Origin: Nocardioides sp. W7
GTDB taxonomy: Bacteria > Actinomycetota > Actinomycetes > Propionibacteriales > Nocardioidaceae
Length of the DNA stretch: 64,000 nt
Assembly: GCF_022919075.1 (NCBI RefSeq)
Contig: NZ_CP095078.1
Coordinates: 434,001-498,000, forward strand
Direction: 5' to 3'
Translations under genes and position numbers: made by a program
Shown here: piece after piece, positions 2-50,234 of the stretch
How positions within the stretch are numbered: the first letter of the stretch is position 1
How the letters are laid out: each line of letters begins with the position of its first letter
The notes under the pieces: model-generated
The model's input: the letters and a program-made list of their open reading frames with translations, nothing else
Database searches by the model: none
Told to the model about the DNA's origin: nothing

Positions 2-1168
2 CTCACCGAGCAGCTCCGGGCCTGGGGGCTGGAGCCGGTCGCCGTCGCCTCGTCCGACGAGGCGTTCGCGACGCTGCGCGAAGGCCTGCGCAGCAACCGC
101 CCCTACGCCCTGGCGATCCTCGACGTGATGATGCCCGGCACCGGCGGTCTCGAGCTGACCCGCCGGATCCGCGCCGACGCCGACCTCGAAGACCTCCGGT
201 TGCTGCTGCTCTCCTCCGACCACCACGTCGGACGCCGCGCCGCGGCGGAGTGCGGCGCCGACGGCTCGCTGAGCAAGCCCGTTCAGCACTCCGAGCTGTA
301 CGACGCCCTGGTCTCGACCCTCGCCGCCGAGGTGCCCGACGGACCCGGATCCCAGCCGTCGACGAGCGCGCCGACGCTCGACATCCGGGTGCTCGTGGTC
401 GAGGACAACCCGGTCAACCAGCTGGTCGCCACCGGCCTGCTGGAGCACCTCGGCGCCTCCGTCGTCGTGGCCTCCGACGGCGTGGAGGCCACCTCGCAGC
501 TGGCCCACCCGCACGGCTTCGACGCCGTGCTCATGGACTGCCGGCTGCCGCGCATGGACGGCTTCGACGCGACCCGCGCCATCCGGGCCGCCGAGCCCGA
601 CGGCGGCCGGGTCCCCATCATCGCGATGACCGCCTCGGCGCTGGAGGGCGAGCGCGAGCGCTGCCTGGCCGCCGGCATGGACGACTTCCTCACCAAGCCC
701 GTCGACGCCAGCGCGCTCGAGCGGGTGCTGCGTCGCTGGACCGGCCCGCAGGTCGAGCCGCAGCCGCTGCCCGCGACCGCCGTGACCGCCCCGGCAGCCG
801 CGGCAGCCGCGGCTCCTGCCTCGGGGATGGTCCTCGACCCCGCCCGGGTCCGGATGCTCGACGAGCTCCGCAAGGACGGCGTCAGCTTCTTCGATCGCAC
901 GGCCGCCTCCTTCATCGGCCGCATCGACGAGCAGGTGCGCGCCATCCAGGAGGCGATCGAGGCCGGCGACGCCAACCGGGTCTTCACCTCCTCCCACCTG
1001 GTGAAGGGCAGCGCGCTCAACCTCGGCCTCCCCCTCGTCGCCGCCGCCGCGGCCGCCCTGGAGGTGCACGCCGAGGCCGGCCGCACCGACCGGACCGAGC
1101 CGCTGATGGCCGAGCTGCACCGCGAGGTCGGCCGAGCCGTCACGGCGCTCCGGAACGCGACGTCTTGA
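2..1168 (+). CDS. C-terminal part of a hybrid sensor kinase: REC-REC-Hpt (partial)
   Basis: The gene enters from outside the window; the frame is open from base 2. The visible 388 residues hold two receiver domains and a histidine phosphotransfer domain. Receiver 1 shows the phospho-acceptor Asp at visible residue 41 (ILDVMMPG) and Lys 92 (SKP). Receiver 2 shows VVEDNPVNQ, Asp 179 (LMDCRLPRMDG) and TKP. After an Ala/Pro linker the Hpt domain has the HxxKGS motif (SHLVKGSALNLG), with the phospho-accepting His near residue 332. In this family the missing N-terminus usually carries sensor, HisKA and ATPase domains, so this is probably a BarA-like phosphorelay kinase. Its stop overlaps the TTG start of the next gene (TTGA), so the two are co-transcribed. 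The input signal cannot be seen. Confidence 0.88.
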   Translation, partial: LTEQLRAWGLEPVAVASSDEAFATLREGLRSNRPYALAILDVMMPGTGGLELTRRIRADADLEDLRLLLLSSDHHVGRRAAAECGADGSLSKPVQHSELYDALVSTLAAEVPDGPGSQPSTSAPTLDIRVLVVEDNPVNQLVATGLLEHLGASVVVASDGVEATSQLAHPHGFDAVLMDCRLPRMDGFDATRAIRAAEPDGGRVPIIAMTASALEGERERCLAAGMDDFLTKPVDASALERVLRRWTGPQVEPQPLPATAVTAPAAAAAAAPASGMVLDPARVRMLDELRKDGVSFFDRTAASFIGRIDEQVRAIQEAIEAGDANRVFTSSHLVKGSALNLGLPLVAAAAAALEVHAEAGRTDRTEPLMAELHREVGRAVTALRNATS

Positions 1169-48947: not shown

Positions 48948-50168
48948 CTACCGCGGTGCACCCCGGCGGCCCGCACGGGCGGCGAACTCGTCGAGCGCCC
49001 CGAGCACGCGGTCGGCGACCCAGACCCGATTGCGCCGGTTCGCCGACGCAGGGCTCAGGACGCCGGCTTCGACGAGCCGATCGATGGCGGCCGCGGCTGC
49101 CGTGTCCGACACCCCCGTCGCCTCCCTCACGAACGCGACGTTGACGGCCGGTTGGGCGACCAGGTGGGGCAGCACCCGCCAGACCGTCGCGTGGCGGCGG
49201 GCGTGCACGACCTCCTCCCACTCGGCGTAGATGTCAGCCAGGTCGAGGTCCAGCCGACGCCCTTTGTCCACCGCGGCGAAGGCCGCCGAGGTGAACTGCT
49301 CGACGATGGGGACGGCGTCTCCATGTCGGTAGGCGGTCAGCGCGGCGAAGTAGGAGTCCACCTCGACCAGCAGCCCCGCCGAGACCGGGATCGTCAGGCG
49401 GGTCGTCGCGCCCGCCCGGCGCAGCATCACGTGCACGAGCGCGCGTCCGGTGCGACCGTTGCCGTCGGCGAACGGGTGAATCGTCTCGAAGTGGGCGTGG
49501 GCGAGCGCGGCGTGCACCAGGACGGGCAGGTCCGTGCGCTCGCCGAACACGAACAGGTCCTCCATCGCGTCGACGACCCGGCTGTCGTGGGGTGGCACGA
49601 ACGACGCGGTGTGCGGCGTGGGGGCATGCCCTCCGATCCACACCTGTCCCTCCCGGTAGCGCCCCGGCTGCGCCTGCTCCTGCCCGGCGGTGAGAACCCC
49701 CTGGATGGCCTGGACCTCGGCGTGACCGAGTCGTTCGGTCAGGTCGATCGCCCGGCGCATGGCCTCGACGTTCGCTGCGACCAGACGCGCGTTCTCACCG
49801 GCCCCCTCGTGGATGACCGCCAGGGCCAGCGCCTTCGCTCCCGCCGTGACGTTCTCGATCTGGGAGGAGGACGCCGACTCGGTGCGCAGGAGCACGGCAG
49901 CGAGCGGAGCGAACTCGACCCCGTAGGTCCCCTGACGGCTGGACAGCTCGGCGTCGAACCGGGTGATCTCGTTGAGGGCGTCCCCAGCCTCGGCCGCGAC
50001 GCTTGCCGGAAGATCGAACACGGCATCGGCGATCGGCGGAACCAACGCGGCTTTGTAACGGCCCCGGGCCTGCAGTCGCGCGCGGCGCGACATCGCCGTG
50101 CCGTCGGCATCCCACGGTCGTTCCTCGTAGCTGACGGCACTCGGTCCCGGCGCAGCTTCCTGGCTCAC
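48948..50168 (-). CDS. Fic-domain protein (AMPylase), class II, with winged helix
   Basis: This 406-residue protein has the Fic core HPFADGNGRTGR (catalytic His 231), used to transfer AMP from ATP to a target hydroxyl. A class II inhibitory helix is present upstream: SSQIEN (residues 101-106) fits the (S/T)xxxE(G/N) motif, with Glu 105 blocking ATP until displaced. The last 100 residues form a winged helix (ATGVSDTAAAAAIDRLVEAG), as in Fic proteins that bind their own promoter. The GTG start has TAAGAT ending 6 bases upstream, overlapping a 10-bp palindrome. The promoter is AT-rich, a possible sign of transfer. No antitoxin gene is adjacent. Confidence 0.93.
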   Translation of the reverse strand: MSQEAAPGPSAVSYEERPWDADGTAMSRRARLQARGRYKAALVPPIADAVFDLPASVAAEAGDALNEITRFDAELSSRQGTYGVEFAPLAAVLLRTESASSSQIENVTAGAKALALAVIHEGAGENARLVAANVEAMRRAIDLTERLGHAEVQAIQGVLTAGQEQAQPGRYREGQVWIGGHAPTPHTASFVPPHDSRVVDAMEDLFVFGERTDLPVLVHAALAHAHFETIHPFADGNGRTGRALVHVMLRRAGATTRLTIPVSAGLLVEVDSYFAALTAYRHGDAVPIVEQFTSAAFAAVDKGRRLDLDLADIYAEWEEVVHARRHATVWRVLPHLVAQPAVNVAFVREATGVSDTAAAAAIDRLVEAGVLSPASANRRNRVWVADRVLGALDEFAARAGRRGAPR

Positions 50169-50176
50169 CAGCAGAT

Positions 50177-50210
50177 CTTATCCAAGCTTTCTGCCAAAAC
50201 CTTGGATAAG
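50177..50210. promoter_or_regulatory. Perfect 10-bp inverted repeat over the fic promoter
   Basis: CTTATCCAAG (50177-50186) pairs with CTTGGATAAG (50201-50210), spacer 14. The first arm overlaps the -10 element (50180-50175). It is AT-rich in a GC-rich region and sits where autorepression by the Fic winged helix would act. Confidence 0.65.
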
Positions 50211-50234
50211 ACCCGGCCGGGACACGCGTGCCGG

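Follow-up and report, generated by a model that had tools for sequence, protein, structure and literature searches.

The Fic gene at positions 48948-50168 (minus strand) of the window, by which we mean the whole 64,000-nucleotide stretch of Nocardioides sp. W7 DNA analyzed here, very probably forms a one-gene system whose product is at once a self-inhibited Fic nucleotidyl-transferase and its own repressor. The predicted operator is a 30-bp palindrome over the promoter of the gene, and the protein carries a C-terminal winged helix. Comparison with homologous genes established, at the level of sequence, the operator, its conserved geometry and its co-variation with the recognition helix, and provides strong comparative evidence for self-recognition and autorepression of the Fic gene. 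The protein most likely represses its own gene, because many relatives repeat this promoter layout with palindromes of different sequence. For the window protein itself, dimer formation and repression are expected by analogy.

The Fic protein and its promoter

The gene is a 406-residue open reading frame (ORF) with a GTG start in the ORF listing. Its product is a class II Fic protein with an inhibitory helix, a Fic core and a C-terminal winged helix, the three elements named in the original prediction, which was made from the DNA sequence alone. Residues 101-106 (S101SQIEN106) conform to the class II inhibitory motif (S/T)xxxE(G/N) on a helix N-terminal to the Fic core. In a structure model the motif lies at the end of helix 86-104 (mean predicted local distance difference test score 80.6 and predicted template modeling score 0.81 from a 21-row alignment, with residues 1-40 mostly below 50). 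The Fic core, HPFADGNGRTGR, occupies residues 231-242 (H231 to R242) and has the active form HxFx(D/E)GNGRxxR; the Pfam Fic match scored 61.6 bits against a cut-off of 24, and the Pfam Fic_N match was below its cut-off. At the C terminus a MarR_2-like match, below the Pfam cut-off, was found at residues 328-372. The winged helix of the structure model comprises helices 344-351 and 355-367 plus short strands, with residues 355-367 forming the recognition helix.

Both S101 and E105 are kept in 142/142 homologues bearing an operator. This conservation, together with the precedents named below, supports the earlier proposal that the protein is self-inhibited, probably via E105 of the N-terminal helix. 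Transferase activity is likewise expected by analogy, and that the protein is an AMPylase rather than a user of another nucleotide is an assumption. The gene lies 50 bp from the stop of the convergent downstream ORF and 66 bp from the upstream ORF, with no gap for an adjacent antitoxin gene. The predicted lack of an antitoxin thus holds for adjacent genes, and the locus is not a two-gene type II toxin-antitoxin system with a separate adjacent antitoxin gene.

Upstream of the gene is an inverted repeat at 50176-50211 with 15-nt arms, 14/15 paired (93% complementary), and a 6-nt spacer. Within it lies the predicted self-operator (50179-50208, minus strand), consisting of the half-sites TATCCAAGGTTT and inverted TATCCAAGCTTT with a 6-bp spacer. 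Read in the orientation of the gene, the sequence is TATCCAAGGTTT-tggcag-AAAGCTTGGATA, followed by AGAT, CTGCTG and GTG. The AGAT completes a −10-like hexamer, TAAGAT (50175-50180, minus strand), which was read from the sequence and shares its initial TA with the outer end of the operator, so that the palindrome does overlap the −10 element as originally predicted. The same prediction spoke of a perfect AT-rich palindrome. The AT-rich operator is real, with a GC content of 0.40 over 30 bp against 0.69-0.73 in the surrounding 500-base segments, but it is perfect only across the outer 11 nt of each arm, with one mismatch in 15. The flanks, also held to be AT-rich, are not; the composition is flat apart from the operator itself. 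The spaced motif TTATCCA..TGGATAA has a single occurrence in the window, and 100 shuffles of the window yielded none. A second operator site was absent from the 5.5-Mb genome at up to three mismatches, half-sites not having been sought, and a regulon of full operator sites was rejected on this count.

The GTG start codon (50166-50168, minus strand) is separated from the operator by 10 nt and from the −10 hexamer by 6 nt. For this reason the Fic mRNA is probably leaderless, with transcription from the GTG itself as its putative +1, which would place the operator at about −41 to −11.

Palindromes and promoter geometry across homologues

A total of 213 loci, including that of the window, was collected from genomes of the same genus, family, order, class and phylum, and was divided into a first (discovery) set of 133 and a fresh (test) set of 80. 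An initial scan of genome contigs gave two loci. Loci L001 and L003 were left out before the homologue analysis, 22/213 loci with a match starting beyond residue 50 were left out of the operator counts, and palindromes above 55% GC were left out. Nine of the 213 alignment rows contain an in-frame stop, written as X. Related genes are counted as separate throughout, except for the sequence weights used in mutual information and the distance correction used in the scan of protein windows.

Palindrome rates were computed on genes matched from residue 20 or earlier, taking the best palindrome with 12-nt arms and a length of 28-36 bp within −75 to +10, with no sequence preference. In the first set at least 10/12 pairs were found in 63/104 genes (60.6%), compared with 1.3% of 520 dinucleotide shuffles and 7.2% of 1033 neighboring control stretches. 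The corresponding figures for the fresh set were 49/66 genes, 5/330 shuffles and 45/660 control stretches. Since the fresh set comes from other centers but has families in common with the first, it is a replication and not a wholly independent sample.

Conservation of the palindrome upstream of close homologues was a check on the predicted autoregulation, which it passed: palindromes of the same geometry were found at L035, L002, L034 and most genes of both sets. The near-identical palindrome TATCCAAGGTTA/TATCCAAGGATA precedes L035 (67% identical), and a palindrome with a diverged pair of arms precedes L002, from a Nocardioides metagenome-assembled genome, and L034 (both 68% identical). An operator was called in 142/191 eligible loci. 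After choice of register the spacer was 6 bp in 97 of these, 5 bp in 31 and of another length in 14, the search having allowed 4-8 bp. The operator sequence differs between clades, for example TACACCACTTTA, TAGCATCGGATA, TACCAACACTTA and TACCAAAGGCTA, with both arms varying jointly. Because the arms change together while the sequence shifts, the conserved property is two-fold symmetry.

The distance to the start codon is also conserved. In 86/142 genes the operator is followed at exactly 10 nt by an in-frame ATG, GTG or TTG, with 0-12 genes at each other offset up to 59 nt; counting the first in-frame ATG or GTG only, the figure is 82/142. For the 112 palindromes picked without sequence preference, the center lay 25 nt from an in-frame start (ATG or GTG) in 57 cases and 24.5 nt from it in 10; no other distance was seen in more than 9. 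A TANNNT sequence stands at the −10-like place in 95/142 homologues, where TA at −12/−11 was favored in calling and hence is no independent evidence. Positions unused in calling are also biased: in the 10-nt class with a 6-bp spacer (n = 69), T at −7 is found in 96%, A at −10 in 71% and G at −9 in 64%. From −6 to −1 of these genes the strongest preference is 64% (C at −1). The operators of the homologues thus look like elements covering about −41 to −11 of an apparent leaderless promoter.

Many operators have further half-sites. The window gene has the two central half-sites only. In the first set a flanking half-site with at least 9/12 matches was present at 43/86 operators, compared with 6.5% of shuffles; 41 of the 43 were in alternating orientation and 27 lay 11 nt from the palindrome. 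A second count gave 42/84 against 69/840 shuffles, and the fresh set gave 17/58 against 36/580. A downstream half-site at 11 nt begins at the TG of a start codon located at 10 nt. In L052, L054 and L058-L060 the first codons, (A/G)TG GCA TCG GAT A, are a third half-site, (A/G)TGGCATCGGATA. Since that half-site covers the start codon along with the codons just after it, the operator partly determines which residues these proteins have at the N terminus.

Several loci depart from the common pattern. Much longer palindromes, with arms of 24-26 nt and scores of 19 to 26, are found near the start of L075, L098, L042 and L009. Twelve loci (L010, L011, L012, L014, L015, L018-L021, L023, L030 and L031) make up the HPFIDGNGRIGR group, of which L011 has a GC-rich palindrome outside the GC limit. 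The window genome contains two further Fic genes with a winged helix-turn-helix (wHTH), L028 (G000:C1:196546-200703), with three alternating TTCCGACTT-type half-sites upstream, and L327 (G000:C1:2376465-2379526), with a less clear palindrome only. The idea that paralogues in one genome have specially diverged operators was rejected: all 12 testable pairs differ, but not to a greater degree than other pairs of like identity (mean difference 4.67 of 8 compared with 4.73 of 8).

An exploratory sample of more distant genes consisted of 44 SoFic-type genes, 25-33% identical to the window protein and hand-picked from 79 other viral-contig loci, with guessed start codons and some loci that are near copies of one another. 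Compact palindromes of at least 11/12 pairs were found near the start in 10/44, compared with 1/220 shuffles; viral-contig SoFic-type loci with a compact palindrome before the guessed start include L248, L249, L254, L256, L261 and L293. Palindromes of 44-48 bp, like that of the Yersinia protein CccR discussed below, were found in 5/44 against 3/220 shuffles at 9/10 pairs; one sequence is represented twice among these five, and compact palindromes overlap two of them.

Operator recognition and proposed mechanism

Mutual information between protein columns and operator bases was calculated for 134 genes of both sets. Left out were L034 (same operator as L002), L027 (below 33% identity) and, with fewer than nine pairs, L074, L080, L118, L176, L197 and L200. 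The best residue:base pairs in the combined set, 360:7, 356:5 and 357:7, all fall within helix 355-367 of the structure model. Next come 373:7 (in or near the wing), 360:8 and 357:6, with 355:4 in twelfth place. The ranking of these pairs, if they represent contacts, would place the contacts colinearly along the recognition helix. The top 20 pairs include 6 within residues 350-366 in the discovery set, 4 in the test set and 6 in the combined set, where 0.9 is expected, and columns 350-366 stand above the rest of the protein with p = 0.015, 0.00016 and 0.00018, respectively. All 8-residue windows of the protein were also scanned after correction for overall protein distance. The top 4 of the 351 discovery-set windows fall within 350-361, and the top 8 of the 368 test-set windows within 353-367. 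Ala-357 occurs with A at operator position 7 in 37/39 cases in the discovery set and 12/14 in the test set (arms counted as halves). A first explicit code, Asn-357 with TC at operator positions 6-7, failed in the test set and was dropped. What co-variation implicates in reading the operator is the recognition helix, not an explicit code.

A number of observations weigh against self-recognition and autorepression. The dropped Asn-357 code held in 20/22 discovery cases but only 4/16 test cases. Pairs outside the domain (121:6, 252:7, 27:3, 129:8 and 400:3) are interspersed in the ranking, and pairs outside the winged helix also score in the test set (e.g. 400:3, 151:5 and 51:8). Fifth place in the discovery and combined sets goes to window 236-243 in the Fic motif; by single column, 155 and 118 lead in the discovery set, and 243 leads when the sets are combined. 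These high ranks outside the winged helix show that a clade signal remains, and the two sets, having some families in common, are not fully independent. No operator was called in 49/191 homologues with N-terminal coverage, by a procedure that favored TA ends and allowed only spacers of 4-8 bp. None of the nine testable members of the HPFIDGNGRIGR group has a called operator, so control there must differ. At the locus itself a generic sigma-70 scan detected no promoter at the Fic gene start, and the window has two half-sites where many relatives have more.

The correlation of residues 236-243, column 243 above all, with the operator after distance correction is an observation in its own right, which could reflect contact, a clade effect or coupling.

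According to the mechanism that we propose, each of the two C-terminal winged helices of a dimer would sit on one of the inverted half-sites of the 30-bp operator. The bound operator would cover the promoter from about −41 to −11, including the first bases of the −10 element, so that RNA polymerase would be blocked and the protein kept scarce; transcription would begin at the GTG, as the geometry suggests for a leaderless gene. The N-terminal inhibitory helix, through E105, would be a second restraint on activity. If the dimer were lost or reshaped, the promoter would open and the enzyme level would rise, and the raised enzyme would probably act on a cellular target by modifying it, in the manner of SoFic-type toxins.

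Alternative explanations of the palindrome were considered. It might be the site of another regulator that controls the Fic gene, with the winged helix serving otherwise, for instance by holding the catalytic domain. Toxicity of EcSofic requires interaction of its C-terminal domain with the catalytic domain (PMC12249575), and PMC10628234 notes that no demonstration of DNA binding existed for SoFic. Nevertheless, the operator co-varies with the recognition helix of the protein itself in two sets, and the sites vary by clade, with no second genomic copy found at up to three mismatches, unlike the site of a shared regulator, making this explanation very improbable. There is similarly little likelihood that the operator serves mainly for activation or fine tuning. 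Arrays of three or four half-sites in relatives could allow co-operative or dual control, but an operator that spans the beginning of the −10 element and extends up to −41 fits occlusion, and CccR is reported to be a repressor (PMC9755527). That the repeat is an RNA hairpin, or a chance or mobile repeat, is hardly credible. It is a long inverted repeat next to a patchily distributed gene, but it lies upstream of the putative leaderless start and so would be untranscribed from the Fic promoter, the genome gave no second copy of it at up to three mismatches, and its symmetry is kept across homologues while its sequence changes.

A further explanation is that DNA is an allosteric switch of the enzyme. 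Binding to the operator would fix the dimer in a single catalytic state (either silent or deAMPylating), and transfer would begin once operator or dimer was lost, making repression and enzyme control one event. Consistent with this, ATP binding is reported to shift the C-terminal domain of Sofic (PMC12249575). On the other side, a dimer-interface mutant of CccR lost repression while its toxicity and AMPylation were only marginally affected (PMC9755527), showing that in CccR repression is separable from toxicity and AMPylation, and the assays of CbFic2 used random DNA. We regard such a switch as unlikely. The link between DNA binding and AMPylation that the original prediction suggested may exist in the window protein, by analogy with the distant CbFic2 (PMC10628234).

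Autorepression by a self-inhibited enzyme could be part of a wider arrangement, in which Fic enzyme, inhibitor, repressor and operator form a widespread one-gene switch, a single closed circuit with operator occupancy setting the catalytic state. This extension is doubtful. If true, lineages would have evolved their own helix/operator pairs, some building a half-site into the start and first codons; DNA would act as the missing antitoxin, and loss of the dimer, for example on phage attack, would free both gene and enzyme. Operator, promoter and DNA-reading residues are now predicted for 142 Fic-wHTH genes, making binding, repression and coupling directly testable.

Distribution and comparison with known Fic proteins

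The Fic gene is present in 19/215 genomes of the genus, 29/245 of the family and 45/394 of the class (E 1e-60), and in 24/346 of the phylum (E 1e-50); these counts include the window genome, and the four samples overlap. The upstream neighbor gene is present in 58/59 genus genomes. In 7/29 relatives the upstream and downstream neighbors adjoin within ∼160 bp with no Fic gene between them, and no Fic match was found in any of the 29 relatives' stretches, each reaching up to 1.5 kb either side. Relatives of the gene occur on 25/72,556 plasmid records (E 1e-30), and phage records gave no match at E 1e-20. Among the 80 viral-contig loci taken from the matches listed, only L247 (44%) is more than 40% identical across most of its length. 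No tRNA that would indicate tRNA-linked insertion lies within the window. Acquisition of the Fic gene is supported because of its patchy distribution and the empty sites. It had also been proposed originally, with AT-rich composition as its sign, and that sign is rejected.

The closest solved relative is a Mycobacterium marinum Fic protein with CDP (PDB 7cb8), which is 36% identical with a VIA Z of 44.6 and a root mean square deviation (rmsd) of 2.9 over 373 residues. Because this structure was solved with CDP, the nucleotide donor of the branch containing 7cb8 and the window protein may be other than ATP; a literature search found no paper fitting 7cb8. SoFic (PDB 3zcn) matches the fold with Z = 37.5 and rmsd 2.4 over 347 residues at 18% identity. 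The PADLOC SoFic match covers residues 53-392 (214 bits, E 9.7e-64), and the NCBIfam SoFic equivalog scored 47.8 bits against a cut-off of 550. More distant matches are CbFic2 (PDB 8cil; Z = 25.8, rmsd 8.8 over 330 residues) and PDB 7xux, which we take to be CccR (Z = 24.4, rmsd 7.1 over 329 residues, 21% identical).

The anti-phage toxins SoFic and EcSofic (PDB 3eqx and 3zcn) share an inhibitory Glu and the Fic motif with the window protein, and inhibition of SoFic by its helix glutamate has been described (PMC3667792). EcSofic is reported to be a dimeric toxin with a separate downstream antitoxin of 47 residues, AS1 (PMC12249575), whereas the 50 bp between the window gene and the convergent stop leave no room for an AS1-like antitoxin. 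CbFic2 of Coxiella burnetii is, like the window protein, a class II Fic protein with a wHTH. Random DNA was shown to dimerize it and alter its (de)AMPylation (PMC10628234). CbFic2 targets histones, is not known to have a specific operator, and is 18% identical to the window protein.

The closest analogy is with CccR of Yersinia pseudotuberculosis, a class II Fic protein with an inhibitory helix and a C-terminal helix-turn-helix that binds AGATAATCAT-N26-ATGATAATCT over its own −35/−10 region and represses itself through these inverted repeats (PMC9755527). The window operator is likewise a palindrome over its own promoter, overlapping TAAGAT at 50179-50208. The two operators differ in layout: that of CccR consists of two 10-bp boxes 26 bp apart, and that of the window of two 12-bp half-sites with a 6-bp spacer, 10 nt from the start. 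The CccR-like spacing is thus absent from the window, and the homologues, searched at spacers of 4-8 bp only, are uninformative on it. CccR is also a secreted effector, and no evidence of secretion was sought for the window protein.

Anti-phage toxins are found among the Fic proteins that have a C-terminal winged helix, and among the literature matches listed an operator is known only for CccR. Those matches (on DNA control of Fic, leaderless promoters and palindromes, with subscription papers outside) contain no report of a family-wide self-operator in Fic proteins. Fic self-repression through palindromes is an already known kind of control, as in Yersinia CccR; what is new relative to CccR is a compact operator common in the family, the leaderless promoter geometry and the start-codon half-sites of the relatives.
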